This document shows positions 2,427 to 20,477 of a stretch of DNA of 64,000 bases, in pieces (the first letter of the stretch is position 1; each line of letters opens with the position of its first letter). The stretch spans positions 25,547,508-25,611,507 of the forward strand of contig NC_049982.1 in assembly GCF_000003815.2 (NCBI RefSeq), read 5' to 3'. Both the position numbers and the translations under genes were made by a program. The stretch is from Branchiostoma floridae (Eukaryota > Chordata > Leptocardii > Amphioxiformes > Branchiostomatidae). A model generated the notes under the pieces. It was not told where the DNA came from. It did no database searches and saw only the letters and a program-made list of their open reading frames with translations.

Positions 2427-3821
2427 AGATAACAAACTAGTTTTAGGAGTGGTTACAATGTAGGTCATAGGTGTACAATAGCTGTAGAATTTACAAGCAG
2501 ATTGTGACGGGAGACCTGGCGCATCCCTGTCTTGTAATTAGCCAGCGAAAGGGTTTGTCAGCAAGGCAGTCTTTTCCATAATAAGATTGCTGAACCTTGA
2601 ATGGCACATGCACTGTTATTCCAAGAATACTCCCTCATTTTTCAACCATACAGCAATCACAGTACGTATGTCACCTGAGGCACTTACTAGCTCATTGTAT
2701 GACATGGTACCCAATGAACAGTGTTATGTGATTGTCGTTATAACCATTATACTACTCCCAATGTTTTTAAGCAACAGTTCATAATACATTTAATGTCATA
2801 TTGAAGGTTCAAGACATAATGGACAGATATATTTAACAATTAATTGTAATTTGTCAACCACAGGAAATTAGAGGTTACATATTTTCCAAGTGTTTTGACG
2901 CATGCTTCATCACTTACATGTACATGACATGATTGTACCAGTCCAACTTTGAAGAGGATGTCTCTGTGATGACTATCAGTGGTTGTAATGATCTTGTGAT
3001 AGATGATGAGCAAGTATAAGTCAAAACATGCTCAAGTATCTGTATGGAGAAATGTATATATTAAGTGTTCATTGTTATGTATCACATGTAATCATATTGT
3101 GTACCAGTCTGTACACATGTTACACTACAATATTATTAATGGAATATAACAGAGGAGATGTACATGTATTACTGATCACTGACAATAAAGGAAACCATGG
3201 TGTAATAGTAACATCATTGTGAATTAAACTTACTATAGAAACAAGTATTTTAGTCTACGTGTGACATTAGCTGTATTAAATTCTTAGCAATGTATGCAAA
3301 CACTTAAATAGAGCATGATTGACTGGTATCTCCTTTTGTGCTATTCTGTAATCTTGATACTCATTAAGCTTCTTAGAGTTGTTCCTTAAAATTTAAGATC
3401 ACATTTCCAAAACTGTCTGTCGTGATTTATCAACAGAGTAAAAAAGACAACTTGCAATTGTTTTCTTCTATTTGATTTCTATTCCTTTGAAATGTCTTAT
3501 GCAAAGAAATGAATAAAGGCAAGTTTATAGTATTATAATTTCAAGAAAATGTCACAGCAATATTTCAAATTGGAACTTCCTTGTTGGTACATTGTAGTCT
3601 GTAGTTTTGGGGTTGCAGTGCATTGTGGGAATGACCTTTGCCATCCCCCTGGCATATTCCATTTCATGTTATGTTTGACAGCCTATTTGTTTATATATAA
3701 CATTGTGGACCTCTGGCATTTGCTTTCAATAATAGATTTGTAGTCACAGTTTGCCCCTGTAGTCTCTTTATAGAATTACACCGGCTGATAATAATACTGG
3801 ACACAGTTCACTGTTTGAATC
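2427..3821 (+). other. 3' untranslated region and short intergenic stretch
   Basis: No coding exon is recognisable. Canonical AATAAA hexamers at 3184-3189 and 3512-3517 are the likely poly(A) signals of the upstream gene. A SINE tail fragment (GGAGACCTGGCGCATCC) lies near 2510. Confidence 0.45.
2509..2560 (+). repeat. SINE 3'-body fragment
   Basis: GGAGACCTGGCGCATCC followed by a TGTCTTGTAATTAGC-like stretch matches the 3' part of the full SINE at 50375-50712 and another fragment at 63932, showing a dispersed family. Confidence 0.6.
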
Positions 3822-4034
3822 GCACATGTGCAGTGAGCTGCATTGTGGGTAATATGTCAAAGGTGAAGGCCCCTTACTTGTAAACAATTCTTGTCTAGAT
3901 GATTCTTAACGTCGACTAGACAAGAATTGTTTGCAAGTAATGCTTAATATATGTCCAGACATGTTATGTCGCATGGGGCCTCAACTTTGTGACGTTTTAG
4001 CCACAGTGCATCTTACTATGTATGCGCAGTATAA
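3822..4034. mobile_element. Palindromic MITE just upstream of the first attractin exon
   Basis: The outer arms (GTAATATGTCAAAGGTGAAG then GGCCCC; and GGGGCCTCAACTTTGTGACG near 3975) are inverted. Inside lies a near-perfect hairpin, TACTTGTAAACAATTCTTG...CAAGAATTGTTTGCAAGTA (3875-3937). A second copy of the family is at 22363-22548. Confidence 0.65.
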
Positions 4035-4735: not shown

Positions 4736-7700
4736 GTAGAGGTAGCTTTTTTTATAGTACCAGTTTACCAGTTTTCTATTTGTTAGGCTTAACACAGCAG
4801 TTTTGTACATCTCCGAAAAAGAAGTAAGGTCTCCCAAGGGTGTCCAAGTATTGTTTTTGGTGTGCCTGTCTATGCAAGAACTTGCAGTTTGTCCATACTC
4901 TGCCAGATGGAGCTTCTCATTTCTGATTGGCTAATGTTTTGTCAGGTGACTGTGCCATGATAGAAGACGAGGACGTGTGCACCAGTTCCCAGCCCGGCGC
5001 CGTGTGTGTGTGGACGGAGGTCGGCTGTATGGACAGACAGGCGGCCGCACAGCTGGGCGAGACTAGGCAATGTCCACCAATCACAGGTCAGCTATTCTTT
5101 GTATTTCAAACTAGAAAATCCCTCTGTGAATCTCTGTGAAATATTTTGTGTGATTTTTTTGTTTTATTCAATCTTGCTGAATCAGATTCTAATTATAAAT
5201 CTACTTTGAATAAGATCACCTCTTCCTGTCAGTCAATGGTTACACCATTTCCCCTTTACTTCCTGCCATTCTCCAAAGTATTGAAATTACTACCAGGGCA
5301 CAAGCAAACAAACACACATTCAAGCAAATAAACAAACAGGCACACTAAAAACATAAAGATGAGGTTAAATATAAAGCATAATACCAGGCTTCCCTCCAGC
5401 TCACAACGTTACACTGTCCAATTTCCAGTTTCTAGCAACAGTTTCTTCCTCAGACTGCCAAAGTATTAAACTCTCACAATGACAACTGTTTCTCGCCTGT
5501 ATACAATCTTCAAGCCGTAAAAACTAACGTTTGCCGATATCTCTCAGCTCTATAATTTTCTACCATTCATTTCATTTAGTATACTGCCTAGAAGTGGTCG
5601 TAAAGACCTTGCATTGAGCAAACCATTAAAAAAGCTGTACATGTACTTGGCTAATAAATGATTGTGTGTGCCCCCATGCAGGCTCCTGTGGCACCTTTAG
5701 TGACTGTGGCACCTGTGTGACTAGTATACACACCTGTCAGTGGTGTACTGATGACAGCACCTGTAAAACTACCTGTGATGACCAAACAGAGGTAAGTCTG
5801 TCTTAAAGGACCACTAAACTCCAAAAATGGGTGTTACATTCTAAAAGATTGTATCAATGAATACATAAGAAGCCGACAGAATTTCACTTGTGGTGACTTA
5901 CACCATGTGCTTTGTAAAACAGTACGATACTCGCTATCCCCATGCAGACCCTACTTATGCATTCTCTATACATATGATATAGACACTCCTTCAGTATGAA
6001 TATTTTCAGCGTAATTTTTTTGTAATAAGCACACCTAGAAGGTCAGTTGTTAATGACACGCAGTACGTTAAAAGAATCATTCTTTGTCAGACTATGAAAT
6101 TTGTTCAGCAACCTGTAAATACTTAGTGTGATTCTGACCAGTGACTGTTGGTTGTGTCTCCAGGCTGTGTCTAACCTACAGAGCTGCCCAGCAGTTCCAG
6201 TGTGTAACACCTTCAACTGTAACGACTGTCAGGACAGGCCAGGATGCCACTGGCAGGCAGAGGAGTGTAAACTAGGTAGAAAAGCTTAATTTCTTTCATT
6301 TTGGGGCACAAAACCCTCAACACTTTACATCATTCGAAAAAAGCAGTATCATATCATATTCCGTATCCAGTATAAGGGCCCTTCAACTTGACACACCAGT
6401 TTTGCAGGCACGTAGCAAGGCAGTCACTGTTTATATTGCATATCTAACTGCCAGCATTGTTTAAAGCTACATGTATTTTGCCCACAGCCCATTGCACAAT
6501 ATACCTTGAGGAGGCTATGCGTAAACCAGGCTGAGGTTTAAACTTTATTTTGGTGACCTCTAACCAGCTGTCAGCCAATCAGAAATCGCGTGGCCGTGGC
6601 CTTGTTGGAAAGGTGGTCGCTATAAACTATTTCTCTAAATGCATAATGCTTATAGGTCAATAGGAAAAATTCAAGGGACCAACAAAAAATGACCGCAGTG
6701 GCCAGGTGGTCGCTATGCAAAGGCCGCTAAGACAGGTTTGACTGTACAGATAAATCAAATGGCCACCTTCATTACATCACATGTAGGTACTGCAGAAGTT
6801 TCCCCATGTAAGCAGCCCTGTAGCCATCGGTTGGACATTGTGAACTGCACCCAGGCAGACTGTATGTGGTGCAGTAATCAGAAGCGCTGTGTGGACTCCA
6901 ACGCCTACGTGCCATCCTTCCCGTACGGACAGTGTCTGGAGTGGTGCACTAAGGCTGACGGGTGTCCTGGTATGTACACGATAGTCAGCCTACCCACACA
7001 TTCACCCAGTGTTGTACACAAAAGTGTTACCATCATTTCTTCATGCATGACATATTCAATATCTATTGATTGAAACATTAACAATGTCTACTTTGTGGCT
7101 CCAATAGAGATGTGTACTTGAACGACTACTAACATCAGGTACAAATGTTTAAGTACAGGTCTGAATCTGAACAAGTTGGCAAGTAAACTGGTTTTCATGG
7201 AGGATAGAGATATAAATAAATGATGACTGTGGTATGATTTACATGTGTGTCCTATGTGTGTTCAGGTGATTTACATGTGTCCCATGTGTGTACAGGAGAG
7301 TGCAGCAGCCCGCGGACCTGTGAGGCGTGTCAGCAGCAGCCGGAGTGTGGCTGGTGTGATGATTGACATGTGTGTACAGGTGTGATAATTTACATATGTG
7401 TACCATGTGTGTACAGGAGAGTGCAGCAGCCTGCAGACCTGGGAGGCGTGTCAGCAGCAGCCGGAGTGTGGCTGGTGTGATGATTTACATGCGTGTACAG
7501 GTGTGACATGTGTGTCCCATGTGTGTACAGGAGAGTGCAGCAGCCTGCGGACCTGGGAGGCGTGTCAGCAGCAGCCGGAGTGTGGCTGGTGTGATGATTT
7601 ACATGCGTGTACAGGTGTGACATGTGTGTCCCATGTGTGTACAGGAGAGTGCAGCAGCCTGCGGACCTGGGAGGCGTGTCAGCAGCAGCCGGAGTGTGGC

Positions 7701-10700
7701 TGGTGTGATGATTTACATGCGTGTACAGGTGTGACATGTGTGTCCCATGTGTGTACAGGAGAGTGCAGCAGCCTGCGGACCTGCGAGGCGTGTCAGCAGC
7801 AGCCTGAGTGTGGCTGGTGTGATGACGGGAGTCAGACAGGGCTGGGTGGGTGTGTGGAGGGCAGCAGTGCAGGACCCATGGTGGGGGGGTCTGACGGAGA
7901 CTTCCACCTCAACACTACCGTCTGTCCCGCCAGCAGATGGTACTTCACCTCATGTCCTGGTAGGTTAAGTGCACAATGTTTTTTTACCTTTGCCAAGAAG
8001 GTAATTTTTCGGTGCTGTTTGTATATGTTTTCGTCTATGGACAGCTTAAGTTGAGACACTTTGGATGGATGTTAAGGCTATTTGGTATGTGGCTAGGGGT
8101 CGAGAAAACAAAGGTCAAGTTAAACACCTTTCTACGGTACTTCAGAAGAACTTCATATTCACAACATACTGTTGTCACAATTTTCAAGTGGTGGATTACT
8201 TCATATGTGTCCGACTCTACTCTATCTATTAATCTCAGGGCTCGAAATACTGGGTGCATGTGCACCCAGGTGCACCCAAAATTGGAGCTGTGCACCCAAT
8301 TATTTTCTGTGCACCCAAATATTTTATTACGTTTATGTAAAAATATCAAAGTATACTTTATAGTCTAGTGTACATCATATTCTTGACATCTAAGTGACTG
8401 TTAGAAAGACAATAAAAATGTCTGTCATGATACATGTTTAAGAATTTGATAGCTTGTAACTAAGTTTTATTTTTTAGGTCTAAATTACTTCAACTTTTAA
8501 TAAGTGGTGCACCCAAAAAAATTTGGTGCACCCAATTTTTTAAGCTGGGTGCACCAGTGCACCTAATCCCAAAAATGAATTTCGAGCCCTGAATCTTGAA
8601 AACATACATGTATGCCATAGAAAATCTAGCCTGTTATATTGGACAGTGCTCAGTGACCTGCAAATATCTGCCTATTTGTAAAAATGCCCAGTGATTCAAT
8701 AGGACACCTGCAGTATTTTTTTAGCAAAAATGCCCCTGTTAGACTATTTTCTTGTTGTGTGATGCCAGCTTTACAAACAAAACAAGAAGAAAATATGTTG
8801 TTAAAGTTTAGTCCGTAACCCTTGCTGATGACCTGTTGTATTTAACTTCAGAATGCCAGTGTAACGGACACAGTACCTGTAACAACACCAACGTGTGTCA
8901 GCAGTGTCAGGACCTCACACAAGGTAACAAACCTGTATTTCTAGAGCAGCAGAGCCTCCTATTGGACTAGTTCAGTACTGCAATCCTATATCATAGACCA
9001 AGTACATGTAGTCTGCTTGTGGGTATTTTGACCAAACAGCAATGTGAATCCTTCAAAAAAGTATGTCTGTCTGACATGTATGTTTGTTTGTCTTTGTGTG
9101 TTTCCCCACTCCCAAATACATAACTACCCACATCCTAGGCTAGGCATGTAGCATTATGAAGAGGTTTGGAATTTTCAAAAACTTTCAGAAATTTGCAAAG
9201 TTTAAGTTAAACTGTTAAGTTAAATGTGAAATTGACTTTCTATTTTCTATGACTTGAACAAACCACATGAGTTGGGTTAAGGAGAAGAAGGAGGTGAAGT
9301 CTTGCAATGTTTTTTAGTTATCCTGCTACCTCTTGCTCCAACAGGTACTCACTGTGAACAATGTGTGCCTGGATACTACGGAGATGCTACAAATGGTGGG
9401 AATTGCACAGGTAATAGCACAGTCTTTTTTCGAATTGACGAAATGTTGGAGTAATAGGAATGGCAGTAGATTGTATATATTGCTTTTTATTTTTGTCCTA
9501 AAAGTAACTTTTCCACCAAGATTATTGTCCATACCAAGATAACGTCCCTAACTGAAGCTAGGTACTAGTATTCATTTTCATCTGAGTCAAGTAAGGTGTA
9601 AAAAGACTTTTACTAGGTTCAAGATTGTGGCCTGTTGGCAATTCAAACCCAGAACCTTTAGATTTTAAGTGAACAACTCTAACCACTTTGTGTTGTTTTT
9701 CTAGTCTGTCAGTGCCATGGCCATGCAGACTTCTGTAATGCACAGAATGGTGACTGCTTCTGTAACACCAAGGGTATCATTGGCAAAGGCTGTGACAGGT
9801 TGGTAAATTCATATCTTTTTGCAGCTTTGCAGCTCACGGTTGAAACAATTTTTAGTCCTCTATGAATATATTGGAAACATATTAGTTAATATGGTGTTAT
9901 AGATATGCAGTGGAGTGGTCACGGCAAAAACCGCAGAAGGAAAAACAAACATTTATAGATATACATTAAAGAATTGCTGGAAGATGCACTGTGCAACCTT
10001 AGGGTTATATACAGTCATGTACATGCCATTCTTAGAATAGTTGAACTGTAATTTCCAACAAAAATTTTCAACTGCACAGCATCAGTCTTTGTCAAGGAAT
10101 GAACATGCCATGTTGTACATTTGTACAGTTGTTTATGATGAGAAATTATTTTAAAAAAGATGTTTTATGAATAAGAGGTAATTGCTTTTTTGCAGATGTG
10201 ACGTCAGTCATCGCTACTTTGGGGATGCAGTCACAGGAACATGTTATTGTGAGTGGATTGCATTCAATCAAATCAATAAAATTATTTACGCAATAGCCGA
10301 GGGTAGAGTGTTTGCCAGCATTTAGACGGTTGAGGGGTTCGAAAATCAACCCCGGTTGAATTATATTATAGACTAGAAAAATAGTACAAAATGTACATAC
10401 TCTGCTTTCTCTGCTTAATGTGTATATAGAAGAGTATATATTGAACACACTCCACTACCAGTGGTCTAGTACTGCAGTGCCTTGATAGCCAAAGGGCTAT
10501 GGATACGGAGATAGACAACACCTTTATATTTTGACAATGTGAATGATTGTAAATTTAGATTTGGGAAATATTGCTTACAATAGTTTCTTATGATTGATTG
10601 ATTGATTAAAGCATTTGTGTAAAAGAAAAAAGCCTTGCAATGTTAGGGTCAATTATTGCTGTATTGTTGACAAATCGACAAAAAACCTTTGAACAAGTCA

Positions 10701-16700: not shown

Positions 16701-19700
16701 AGATATCAAGCATGCAGGTCCTGCTGCAGTACCTTAGCAAGCCGCTAGGAGGCCCATTATCGAACTCGACCTTCGTCTTCCACACCCCTACCCACCCACC
16801 AAATATCAGCTGCATCCATCGAAGTCCTCTCGAGTTATGCTGCTCAGAAACGGGGAGAACCACACCACCAAACCGAAAACATAACCTTAGCCATTCTGGC
16901 AAAGGTAACAATTTCTGTAGTGCTGTTAGTAAGTTATTGTGGTGTGACAAACTCACAAAATATAATCTCAGCAGACATTACAAGATTTACAGTAATATAC
17001 AATAAACTTGTTCTGAGTTTCATATGGTGGTAGTTAGTTAATGTTACCCAATTTTGTGATGCGCAAATCATTGTTTTAAATACAATGTATTGAAAAGATA
17101 GACTGTTATAGTTTGACTGATGTCTCAGTGTGGCTCAAACGGTAGCAGCCTTACAGTTGAACCTCTGATTCCAATTAGTTGGTTGCTAGGAGACCCCAGT
17201 TCAATTCTGGGTCAGAAAATCTGTTGGGGCTGCACCTGTCTTTCAGAAGGGAAGTAAAATGTAGCCCTGTGATCAAGGAGGGGCCTCTAAAGGAGAAGGG
17301 CTAGCGACCTCTGTCCCTTGTAAAAATATACCCTACTACTAAAACAGCAAGGAAACTTGCTGACCTATGTCTAGGCACTATATATATATGAGGGTCCGAA
17401 AAAGTGAACAGTGTTTTTCCCCTTCCTTGCTAGGTAACTTTTTCCCAGCACGGCAGTATCCTGGACCTTGTGCAGTTCTTTGTCACTTTCTTCAGGTAAA
17501 ACTTTCTTCACTTACTTCATCTGTGTAAGTAGTGTGCTGAGAATTGTAGCATCTGTACATTATGAATAAGATTTTTGAATTTTGTAAAAGCTCTTGATGC
17601 GTATCATCGTTAATCATAAAGGATTCTGCTGCAGTATCAAGGTCTCACACTAGAGTTAGGGCCAATGTTAAACTTGACTTTCATCTTGCCAAGACCAACC
17701 CACATACTAAATACAATCAGAATCCATCCTTGAGTTATTGCTGACCACACAAAACTATGTAGAAGCAGACAGACACACCTCCAATCTTTTATACATATAT
17801 TGCTTGTTGCGCTTTCAATAGAATTTGATATAGATATAGATAATATTGTATGTTTTTCCCGCAGCTGTTTCCTGTCCCTGCTGCTGGTGGCAGGAATCTT
17901 CTGGAAGGTCAAACAGCGGGTCGACACATTCCGTAGGCGACGGGTAAGTCATCGAGTTCAAGTGCTTCTTCTTTCCATAGACTTACTAAAGGTCTCATTC
18001 TTGCTATTGACTATAATGTACAAATACATACCGTATACACCTGATTAACCTACAGGAAATGTTATGGTATCATTCATTCTATGTTGAGCTCATTGGTCCT
18101 ACGTTACATTAAAGAATGTACCCAAAGATTTTCAAACACAGTTATGGCTTATTATTTGGTTTTTGGTTGGTTGGTCCGTCTACTCTCTTTTCGCAGCCAG
18201 GGGCTGAATTGCGAGGAGCTTACAATAGGTGGGGCTAGATCACAATGGTCTGTAATGGCAGCCTGTATACAGCACCTACTTGTAGTGACCTCAATGCAGT
18301 TGTGGCCATTGAACTGTAGGTTTTGAATCACTCACACCAGAAAGGATCCCTATCTATTTGATAAGTGAAGTAGGTTCTTTTAGGTGATCAAGGTGTGGCT
18401 GTCTTCAAACATGGGTCCTCCATTTAACATCCTCCGTGAAGTGGGGAACAATGTGTAAAGTGCCTTTCCCAAGGGCACAACATCGGGGCATATCAGCGGT
18501 TTCAAACCTGGGACCTCTGGGGTTTGGGTCACCTTTGCTAAGTTATCGATTCTGCCACATGATGCCACACATTCACAAACTGCACCTAGCCAGCCACTGA
18601 AGGAGGCACTTTTGCAATCAAAACTCAGGATAGTGCATCTTTAAATTTGTGCACAGCTCCCAACATTGTGCAGGACATCTGTTCATTTTTCCCTCTACTT
18701 GACAGGAGATGATTATAGAGATGGCACAGATGGCCAGCAGGCCCTTCTCCAAGGTCATGTTAGAAATGGAAATCAACACAGAGCCACCGGATGGTGTAAA
18801 TAAAAGAAAACAGGTAAGTCTCAATCATGGCCTCCGTGAATGGAGGTTTTGTTTTAGGAGTGTCTGTTTGGTTGTACATGTATGTCAATAGTTTTTGAAG
18901 ACATTTTCTCTTTGATGAGTAAAATGCTTATGCAAACCATAGCTTGAGACAAACAGTAACCTAGTGCTTCTTTGCATATACAAGGCCTGTCAGGGGCATT
19001 GACCTGAAATTGTTAGGTCAAAGGTCCCAGAATAGGTTATCTCATTTTCTGTCTTCAATTTTCTTTTGCATATCTATGTATGTTTTGCCTTATACCTAAT
19101 TGTAGATATAAGCACAACTTGGTTGTTTTATTTTTCAATGAATGTACATAAAGTGGAAAACAAAATACAGTAAAGAACACTTCTGTAATGCTAAGACAGA
19201 TGGAAAAACACTATCATTTAAGAAAGATTTCAGCACCTCCTTCATATTCTTTGTCTAATTCATTACAATGTAAACTGGTTGTTTCCAATAGAGACGTCCT
19301 GGGGCTATTTCACTAGAGCCTCTAGCTGGAAACAAAGCAGCTGTGCTGTCAGTCTTCATGCATCTGTCAACAGGGGACAGCTCACAGCCTGCTGTAGGGC
19401 ACACAGGTAAGACACATAACAGCTCACAACCTGCTATAGGGCACACAGGTAAGACACATGACAGCTCACAACCTGCTGTAGGGCACACAGGTAAAACACA
19501 TAACAGCTCACAGCCTGTTGTAGGGCACACAGGTAAGACACATAACAGCTCACAACCTGCTGTAGGGCACACGGGTAAGACACATGACAGCTCACAACCA
19601 GCTGTAGGGCACACGGGTAAGACACATGACAGCTCACAACCTGCTGTAGGGCACACAGGTAAAACACATAACAGCTCACAGCCTGCTGTAGGGCACACGG

Positions 19701-20477
19701 GTAAAACACATGACAGCTCACAACCTGCTGTAGGGCACACAGGTAAAACACATAACAGCTCACAACCAGCTGTAGGGCACACAGATAAGGCACATGACAG
19801 CTCACAACCTGCTGTAGGGCACACAGGTAAGGCAAATGACAGCTCACAGCCTACTGTAGGACACACAGGTAAGACACATGACAACTCACAACCTGCTGTA
19901 GGGCACACAGGTAAGACACATGACAGCTCACAGCCTGCTGTAGGGCACACAGGTAAGACGCATAACAGCTCACAGCCTGCTGTAGGACACACAGGTAAGA
20001 CACATGACAGCTCACAACCTGCTGTAGGGCACACAGGTAAAACACATAACAGCTCACAACCAGCTGTAGGGCACACAGATAAGGCACATGACAGCTCACA
20101 ACCTGCTGTAGGGCACACAGGTAAGACACATGACAGCTCACAACCTGCTGTAGGGCACACAGGTAAGACACATGACAGCTCACAGCCTGCCGACAGGCGT
20201 TCACTTTTTTGTGTGCTTACAGGCCCAAGAAAATGATAAGAATGAAGTAGAGGAGAGTTGATAGTCATTTCTACCAAGTTTCTTCAGTCAAACTTGGTCT
20301 CGGTTAACAGAGGCATTAGTGTTGTTCTCTTTTCTTTCTCTCCCAGGTCTAGCAGTAGGGAGCACACTTGTAGCAGTAGAACATTCCAGCAAACCGGCCG
20401 AGGGAAAAGACAAACAGCCCATGTCGCTCTGGCATCGTAAACACCACAGCCCCACACATATAGGGACCTGCATATGA
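4109..20477 (+). CDS. ATRN: Attractin orthologue, 3' half (19 exons)
   Basis: Exons read by eye: 4109-4193, 4671-4735, 4946-5086, 5682-5791, 6164-6275, 6787-6969, 7759-7959, 8852-8923, 9345-9410, 9705-9798, 10196-10248, 10873-10967, 11506-11575, 13961-14112, 17434-17495, 17865-17943, 18706-18813, 19292-19406 and 20347-20477. All have GT-AG borders and compatible phases, giving ~663 codons. Order: last kelch blade (RFGHSAIVLN, VVFGGFNSVLLGDIL), PSI modules, two laminin-EGF modules, membrane-proximal domain (LLIDYQFTFNLS), transmembrane helix (FFVTFFSCFLSLLLVAGIFW) and a tail with MASRPF, ALEP-like SLEPLAGNKAAVLSVF and terminal GTCI. From memory these match vertebrate attractin closely from end to end. 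Vertebrate attractin is a type I glycoprotein involved in pigmentation, energy balance and myelin maintenance. The 5' exons (signal peptide, CUB, EGF, kelch 1-5) are absent from the window. ATRN and ATRNL1 are equal candidates; a pre-duplication single gene is likely. Confidence 0.93.
4946..6969 (+). CDS. ATRN: Attractin exons: cysteine-rich PSI modules
   Basis: Exons 4946-5086 (DCAMIEDEDVC), 5682-5791 (CGTFSDCGTC, CQWC), 6164-6275 (CNTFNCNDCQDRPGCHW) and 6787-6969 (CMWCSNQKRCVDSNAYVPSF) carry the C-x(5)-C-x2-C / C-x-W pattern of plexin-semaphorin-integrin modules. In vertebrate attractin a C-type lectin domain lies between the modules corresponding to the last two exons. Here they are separated by only 511 bp of non-coding DNA and splice directly in phase 1. 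Confidence 0.88.
6595..6750. repeat. Dispersed 'tacagtcaaacctg' repeat copy
   Basis: GGTGGTCGCTATAAAC... ending GACAGGTTTGACTGTAC is the inverse of ACAGTCAAACCTGTATTAGC at about 61296. It is a transposon-derived family with copies in two genes of this window, and occupies part of the intron where the lectin domain would be expected. Confidence 0.5.
7296..7758 (+). repeat. Tandem array of exon copies (121/114-bp period) at a PSI-exon acceptor
   Basis: The exon start GAGAGTGCAGCAGCC follows a gtgtgtacag acceptor at 7296, 7417, 7531, 7645 and 7759 (spacings 121, 114, 114, 114). Each of the first four copies has part of the exon (to GTGTGATGAT) plus a short intron-like spacer. Copies 2-4 are open in the frame of the real exon, each adding 38 codons (GECSSLRTWEACQQQPEC...). 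Copy 1 is out of register and hits TGA. Copies 2-4 have Trp where copies 1 and 5 have the PSI cysteine (RTWEAC versus RTCEAC), so copy 5 is the likely functional exon. Confidence 0.92.
7759..7959 (+). CDS. ATRN: Attractin exon: membrane-distal PSI module, last array copy
   Basis: Reads ECSSLRTCEACQQQPECGWC then DDGSQTGLGGCVEG and ends TSCPG before gtaggt. This matches the PSI repeat preceding the laminin-EGF modules of attractin. The exon enters and leaves in phase 1. If the acceptor at 7416 were used instead, the exon would be 7417-7959 and include three further in-frame modules. Confidence 0.88.
8236..8591. mobile_element. Short inverted-repeat element, 'gtgcaccca' family (hAT-like ends)
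   Basis: Ends CAGGGCTCGAAAT and ATTTCGAGCCCTG are perfect inverted repeats, flanked by AATCT on both sides. The interior is built of GTGCACCC motifs. A half copy (GTGCACCAGT...GAATCTCGGGCCCTG) lies at 61385-61457. CAGGG termini suggest hAT, although only a 5-bp duplication is clear. Confidence 0.7.
8852..10248 (+). CDS. ATRN: Attractin exons: two laminin-type EGF modules
   Basis: Exons 8852-8923 (CQCNGHSTCNN), 9345-9410 (CVPGYYGDATNGGNC), 9705-9798 (CQCHGHADFCN, CFCNTKGI) and 10196-10248 (RYFGDAVTGTCY). The two C-x-C-x-GH...GYYGD / RYFGD units are laminin-EGF modules like those in attractin and MEGF8. Intron 9411-9704 carries a decayed tRNA-like segment (about 9630-9690, minus strand, box-B-like GGGTTTGAATT) just before the acceptor. 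Confidence 0.9.
10873..14112 (+). CDS. ATRN: Attractin exons: membrane-proximal extracellular domain
   Basis: Exons 10873-10967 (DLLIDYQFTFNLSKSD), 11506-11575 (RDVTFTINTSAMATMNITIA) and 13961-14112 (NTTFYVIVYNFTTPFWLQ). These align with the beta-rich stretch that follows the laminin-EGF modules in attractin. Several N-x-S/T sites are visible. The intron between the last two exons contains the hAT-type insertion at 11630-13410. Confidence 0.88.
11630..13410. mobile_element. Non-autonomous hAT transposon with 8-bp target duplication
   Basis: The left end CAGTGCTGTTTCCAG and the right end CTGGAGACAGCACTG are inverted repeats with one mismatch. The element is bracketed by identical GTGTACCC at 11622-11629 and 13411-13418, the 8-bp target-site duplication expected of hAT. 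The 1781-bp interior has runs such as GTCCGGGGGCATGCTCCCCC but no convincing transposase; the longest ORF (144 aa, 12491-12925 minus) shows no hAT motif I recognise. A related 5' module occurs at 36897. Confidence 0.88.
13574..13782. mobile_element. Palindromic MITE ('ACTGTAAATGC' ends)
   Basis: ACTGTAAATGC at the left and GCATTTACAG at the right are inverted. Interior arms GGTTTTAAGTTCGCGGTG and CACCGCGAAAACTGCGAAC also pair. It lies in the intron upstream of exon 13961. Confidence 0.7.
14290..17430. repeat. Intron filled with diverged direct repeats
   Basis: This 3.3-kb attractin intron shows repeated ATTATGCAAAT / CATGATGATCC units at about 14330-14940. It also has a second family, CCGCTAGGGGGCCCATTATC ... 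CTCGAGTTATGCTG, at 14956-15140, 16437-16570 and 16725-16910, with a decayed copy near 17623-17790. The 16325-16910 part is a tandem pair with about 285-bp period. No gene is recognised. Confidence 0.65.
17124..17390 (+). mobile_element. tRNA-headed SINE
   Basis: A box-A-like TGGCTCAAACGGTAGCAG is followed about 60 bp later by box-B-like AGTTCAATTCTGGG. The body (CTGTCTTTCAGAAGGGA...AGGAGAAGGGCTAG) is shared with 34327-34560 and its tail with 33690-33790. Not a functional tRNA: the acceptor ends do not pair. Confidence 0.65.
17434..17943 (+). CDS. ATRN: Attractin exons: transmembrane segment and stop-transfer
   Basis: Exon 17434-17495 (TFSQHGSILDLVQFFVTFF) joins 17865-17943 (CFLSLLLVAGIFWKVKQ then RVDTFRRRR). 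Together they form one hydrophobic helix of about 23 residues followed by a basic cluster, giving a type I topology. The match to attractin in this stretch is almost word for word. Confidence 0.92.
18375..18565 (-). mobile_element. tRNA-headed SINE fragment
   Basis: On the minus strand a tRNA-like head with AGGTTTGAAACC as box B runs into TTGTGCCCTTGGGAAAGGCA. The GGGAAAGGCACTT body is shared with copies near 41190 and 53765. Confidence 0.55.
18706..20477 (+). CDS. ATRN: Attractin exons: cytoplasmic tail and stop
   Basis: Exon 18706-18813 reads EMIIEMAQMASRPFSKVMLE. Exon 19292-19406 reads GAISLEPLAGNKAAVLSVFM and ends GHT plus one base at CAG|gtaaga. Exon 20347-20477 completes Gly, then LAVGSTLVAVEHSS ... 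HIGTCI and TGA. The MASRPF motif is shared by attractin, ATRNL1 and MEGF8 tails and is tied to the MGRN1/MEGF8 ubiquitin-ligase system. The last intron is phase 1 and begins inside the 42-bp array, so several other donors would give longer in-frame tails. Confidence 0.9.
19376..20193 (+). repeat. 42-bp tandem array, each unit carrying a splice donor
   Basis: Nineteen complete 42-bp units (19376-20173) and a partial one encode the 14-residue repeat DSSQPAVGHTGKTH in the attractin frame with no stop. Each unit has CACACAG|GTAAGA or a variant at offset 30. Units 1, 2, 4-9, 11-16, 18, 19 and 3 keep GT (17 of 19); units 10 and 17 read CAGATAAGG, which destroys it and changes Gly to Asp. The first unit straddles the real exon-intron border at 19406/19407, so the array grew out of that junction. 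Confidence 0.95.
20223..20261 (+). CDS. Possible alternative last exon of attractin
   Basis: A strong acceptor (cttttttgtgtgcttacag) ends at 20222. Joined in phase 1 to any array donor it would add G-P-R-K and stop at TGA (20234-20236). This would replace the conserved GTCI end with a short tail. No evidence of use is available from sequence alone. Confidence 0.3.
   Translation, partial: AQENDKNEVEES

Follow-up and report, generated by a model that had tools for sequence, protein, structure and literature searches.

A splice-donor minisatellite in an amphioxus attractin gene, probably an intronic mirage

Tandem repeats at splice sites

A minisatellite made of splice donors is said to have been described by Turri et al. 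in 1995 in the human gene IFI6 (6-16, G1P3), in which the repeat unit is a 12-bp one. Two downstream units of this repeat are said to serve as donors, giving three mRNAs (PMC4526556, excerpts). In amphioxus, tandem repeats lying across exon-intron boundaries, called mirages, have been reported in Adh3, globin and troponin C genes (PMC3087553) as well as in PGBD5 (PMC3902484). According to excerpts of the former source, mirage units range from 10-160 bp, the BflGb6 mirage has different unit numbers in two haplotypes (6 and 3), the Adh3 mirage shows somatic instability, and regular splicing is reportedly not disturbed by such repeats (PMC3087553). In lancelet PGBD5, repeats of 60 and 108 bp extend over splice sites, and the paper on this gene states that the Adh and troponin C mirages generate no aberrant mRNAs (PMC3902484). 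A related model is that of Rogers (1989), in which introns are gained by tandem duplication of AG/GT proto-splice sites (summarised in PMC3087553).

The array analysed here lies at the end of the penultimate exon of an attractin gene, within a 64,000-nucleotide stretch of amphioxus DNA (the window, whose positions are used throughout). The genome is taken to be that of an amphioxus because the fluorescent protein mNeonGreen, which originates from Branchiostoma, matches 68 exons in it, most of them clustered, with identities of 85% and 88% for the two best exons; the Pfam GFP model gave no match in this genome, probably owing to the shortness of the exons. It is a previously undescribed mirage, mirages themselves being already known; the titles and abstract openings among the literature matches listed make no mention of it. 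With a probability of about 0.7, we read it as a mirage minisatellite of the amphioxus kind that is mostly intronic, the first donor (donor 1) being the dominant one.

The gene and its tail exons

Upstream of the array, and on its strand, are exons with Pfam PSI, laminin EGF (EGF_laminin) and GBD_ATRN domains, after which come a membrane helix and a tail with MASRPF. This succession is that of the attractin/MEGF8 group, MEGF8 being a relative of attractin. The gene is tentatively named attractin rather than MEGF8 because the only GBD_ATRN match of the genome falls in the array-bearing gene and because the protein ends with GTCI, presumably the C-terminal end typical of attractins. Judged by its residues, this end (20465-20477) would also conform to the class I PDZ ligand motif.

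The membrane and tail exons (Table 1) translate successively as CFLSLLLVAGIFWKVKQRVDTFRRRR, EMIIEMAQMASRPF..., RRPGAISLEPLAGNKAAVLSVFMHLSTGDSSQPAVGHTG and LAVGSTLVAVEH...GTCI. Once joined, the tail matches MEGF8 chains in the PDB over its membrane and MASRPF part (E 4.5e-7), and its three PDB matches are all MEGF8, with no chain named attractin among them. A second stretch of this alignment, with a score of 4.4 bits that is not significant alone, spans the junction with a five-residue gap and no repeat, which agrees weakly with donor 1 as the ordinary exon end. The end of the penultimate exon (19406) was placed by homology and donor sequence, while the acceptor AG ending at 20346 sets the start of the last exon. 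A search for retrocopies or paralogues recording a spliced tail found none, the three matches being the tail exons themselves.

Table 1. Positions of the gene features considered in the window
Feature	Positions	Strand	Basis
Acceptor-side mirage: five acceptor copies, each accompanied by part of the PSI exon	7276..7825	+	sequence
AG preceding the CFLSLLLVAGIFWKVKQRVDTFRRRR exon	17863-17864	+	
Exon encoding the last part of the transmembrane helix and the beginning of the cytoplasmic tail (CFLSLLLVAGIFWKVKQRVDTFRRRR)	17865..17943	+	translation; with the next exon, aligns to MEGF8 PDB chains
Tail exon with the MASRPF motif	18706..18813	+	translation; MASRPF common to MEGF8 in the alignment
Penultimate exon, 115 nt; with donor 1, its end reads ...GHT followed by the first nucleotide of a Gly codon	19292..19406	+	
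19 full 42-bp units, each 31 bp of copied exon end and 11 bp of copied intron start	19376..20173	+	
17-bp partial unit closing the array, followed by unique DNA	20174..20190	+	
Additional acceptor-like stretch (acttttttgtgtgcttacag) between the array and the last exon	20203..20222 (to 20236)	+	sequence only
Last exon, GLAV...GTCI and stop	20347..20477	+	translation

Anatomy of the array

Tandem Repeats Finder delimits the array as 19376-20190, with a period of 42, 19.4 copies, 91% matches and 0% indels. Unit 1 begins with the last 31 bases of the penultimate exon and continues with the first 11 of the intron; the mean unit-to-unit identity is 92.3%. A sequence-only reading of the window had described 19 tandem 42-bp units at this junction, none of them interrupting the attractin frame and 17 keeping GT at the same offset and phase, and had predicted an intact protein end whichever array donor is joined to the conserved last exon. 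These points are borne out. Cutting the array unit by unit gives 19 full units and 17 bp without any indel, with GT in 17 of the 19 units, units 10 and 17 displaying CAGATAAG instead. Over 19376-20193, the + strand has no stop in the attractin frame versus 19 and 38 in the other two, and joining any of the 17 GT donors to 20347 yields a single open frame ending with GTCI. Each added unit brings 14 residues; by simple arithmetic, the cytoplasmic tail after the membrane would measure about 130 residues without extra units and about 382 if 18 of them were included. The peptide DSSQPAVGHTGKTH, announced as the one that extra copies would add, is encoded exactly by nine of the 19 units, the other units differing from it.

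The donor sequence CAGGTAAG is intact in 10 units and altered in the nine others. No strong lag signal indicating block duplication is observed between units, the mean identities being 0.912-0.935 at lags 1-11, and units 9-10 and 16-17 look alike by eye. A genome-wide pattern search allowing up to two mismatches located at least 19 places, all within the array, versus 0 and 1 for the reversed control pattern, and a search of the 513-Mb genome with the whole array as DNA query revealed no copy outside the window among the matches listed.

On the minus strand of the array, one frame is stop-free and another includes only two stops; an antisense open frame of 342 residues (19255-20283) found there is probably a by-product of the repeat. 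The acceptor-like stretch starting at 20203 would, if used, end the protein with GPRK and remove GLAV...GTCI, and it would define a 60-nt intron with the last array donor. Each unit had also been said to contain a weak acceptor-like CTGCTGTAG/GG, which could in principle define 9-nt microexons. The exact site occurs in 12 of the 19 units and not in the rest, TGTAGG being present in 18, and we reject the microexons as the stretch preceding this site is pyrimidine-poor in the three units inspected (only 10-11 pyrimidines of 20).

Donor strength and donor choice

The U1 pairing energy of units with CAGGTAAGA is -12.3 kcal/mol. Nine of the ten units with an intact CAGGTAAG reach this value and unit 11 reaches -12.8, whereas four other donors of this gene have -5.5, -8.4, -12.3 and -13.0; with a rough matrix, 3 of the 4089 other + strand GTs of the window score as high. 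Judged by sequence, the ten array donors thus seem to be good ones. In nine further units, CAGGTAAG is identical to that of donor 1 (CAG/GTAAG) and the flanks are near-identical. Donor 1 therefore has no intrinsic advantage over these nine equally good copies, and no sequence reason was found to pick it alone, which is the strongest argument against settling firmly on donor 1 as the sole donor. Because nine donors match it over CAG/GTAAG, low-level use of other array donors is quite possible, and since all 17 GT donors give intact ends, nothing obvious selects against the extra ones.

These properties speak for stochastic splicing, in which several of the ten equal donors would be used and 0 to 18 extra 14-residue units would be added without regulation or function. 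Such splicing would find a precedent in IFI6, for which splicing from two downstream units is reported (PMC4526556, excerpts), and it would be tolerated by an array where every GT donor leads to an open frame and an intact end, with U1 energies of -12.3 or -12.8 kcal/mol for the ten intact copies. We nevertheless consider it unlikely, as the Adh3, troponin C and globin mirages reportedly leave regular splicing undisturbed and as the use of distal donors would enlarge the 115-nt exon, by arithmetic up to 871 nt. More doubtful still is the outcome in which the use of several of the ten donors would give, from one attractin gene, a ladder of tails measuring between about 130 and about 380 residues. 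This ladder would differ between individuals and cells, since mirage length is reported to vary among haplotypes and, for Adh3, somatically, and the repeat, located between MASRPF and the C-terminal GTCI, would then be a variable spacer.

Decay of the units and coding constraint

The sequence-only reading had suggested that the array could act as a length dial, with donor choice and germline copy number tuning the tail; it is considered here as a dial under selection. The period divisible by three, the kept phase, the lack of indels and stops and the six synonymous changes among the 14 distinct ones go in this direction, but the donor bases, which such a dial should keep better than the rest of the unit, show no extra conservation. 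Compared with the consensus, the units carry 37 mismatches over 798 positions, and GT survives as average decay would have it: 17 intact copies are observed, and the rate of mismatches in the remaining columns predicts 17.3. The donor 9-mer accumulates 13 mismatches in 171 positions versus 24 in 627 elsewhere, and 40 of the 42 circular 9-column windows (the donor's own included) have no more mismatches than the donor 9-mer. These sequence tests give no clear sign that extra donors are being maintained.

The share of synonymous changes leads to P values of 0.07-0.22 depending on the assumed expectation, which is not significant. All six third-position changes are synonymous, and changes restricted to a single unit represent five of the eight nonsynonymous ones versus one of the six synonymous ones, a combination that leans towards coding constraint. 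The variable columns include six of the 14 third positions versus eight of the 28 others (Fisher P 0.49). The absence of stops carries little weight because a stop would arise in the attractin frame through only about 3% of single changes, and an open frame by itself says little, as the minus strand is also stop-free in one frame. The open frame comes mostly from the 31 of 42 bases that are copied exon together with the period divisible by three; beyond the copied exon, the only requirements were this period and some four additional codons without a stop. The features making the array look designed are thus mostly inherited, and the dial has in our opinion very little chance of being the right explanation.

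Arrays of the background set (period of at least 12, at least 3.5 copies, 20 stretches, one doubly listed array being counted once) point the same way for period and indels. A period divisible by three is found in four of the ten distinct arrays. The array of stretch L030 at 3115-4021 (43-bp period, 21.1 copies, 90% matches) has 0% indels together with stops in all six frames, the frame check covering six of the ten arrays, and 0% indels is therefore not specific to coding DNA. Both 43-bp arrays of L030 (442-2695 and 3115-4021) have a consensus with a donor-like CAGGTAAACAGG and stops in all frames, and both adjoin stretches of N. Stretch L017 holds a 117-bp array of 27.8 copies with 99% matches (4767-8016), in which one minus frame is stop-free and two other frames have one stop; this array is possibly coding.

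That the array or its copy number results from misassembly is hardly credible, for while a single assembly stands behind it, the units carry internal variants, the array edges fit the exon and the intron, and both the pattern and the DNA searches found no other copy in the genome.

An acceptor-side mirage in the same gene

A second mirage is found upstream, on the acceptor side of the PSI exon. Its acceptor AGs end at 7295, 7416, 7530, 7644 and 7758, with spacings of 121, 114, 114 and 114. In copy 1 a stop interrupts the frame, though the Cys is kept; in copies 2-4, Trp replaces the Cys present in the last copy. The frame is open from acceptor 2 on. The single Pfam PSI stretch is located in the last copy. 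This decay suggests that the extra acceptor-side copies are intronic and, by analogy, it supports an intronic donor array.

A mirage probably removed mostly as intron

The mirage reading with donor 1 dominant would start with the tandem duplication of 42 bp from across the exon-intron junction (31 bp of exon and 11 bp of intron). Growth to 19 units would have followed by slippage or unequal exchange, with local homogenisation, this mode of growth being deduced from the present array. Most or all of the mRNA would probably be spliced from donor 1 (19406/19407) to 20347, the array being removed as intron and the tail having the ordinary length for the family. Occasional use of other donors would likely be tolerated, because the period is divisible by three and the phase is kept. 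The dominance of donor 1, which we infer, corresponds to the alternative already mentioned in the sequence-only reading (first donor used, remainder intronic repeat). We prefer it chiefly by analogy with comparable structures of other amphioxus genes, which reportedly leave splicing undisturbed.

Ten nearly identical in-frame donors at graded distances constitute a natural test of how the spliceosome chooses among equal 5' splice sites. Exclusive use of the first donor would mean that position may be sufficient to decide; if several donors serve, such an array would be a route for a minisatellite to add protein length variation without breaking the gene.

Comparison with known systems

The array spans an exon-intron boundary in a cephalochordate genome, its 42-bp unit falls within 10-160 bp and GT is present in 17 of the 19 units; by sequence, it thus appears to share every mirage feature examined. 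As in the mirages of Adh3, BflGb6, BflGb9, troponin C and PGBD5, the units straddle the boundary and AG/GT is found in many of them, not in all. Unlike the two BflGb6 haplotypes, with 6 and 3 units, the attractin array has more units. It also differs from known mirages in that the period divisible by three and the phase hold every donor in frame, although the PGBD5 periods are also divisible by three, and in that the same gene includes an acceptor-side mirage too. Like IFI6, it is a minisatellite repeating a splice donor, but the gene, the animal and the unit are others. As in the proto-splice model of Rogers, most units carry AG/GT and could in principle seed an intron; the attractin array departs from that model in that a new intron is not evident.
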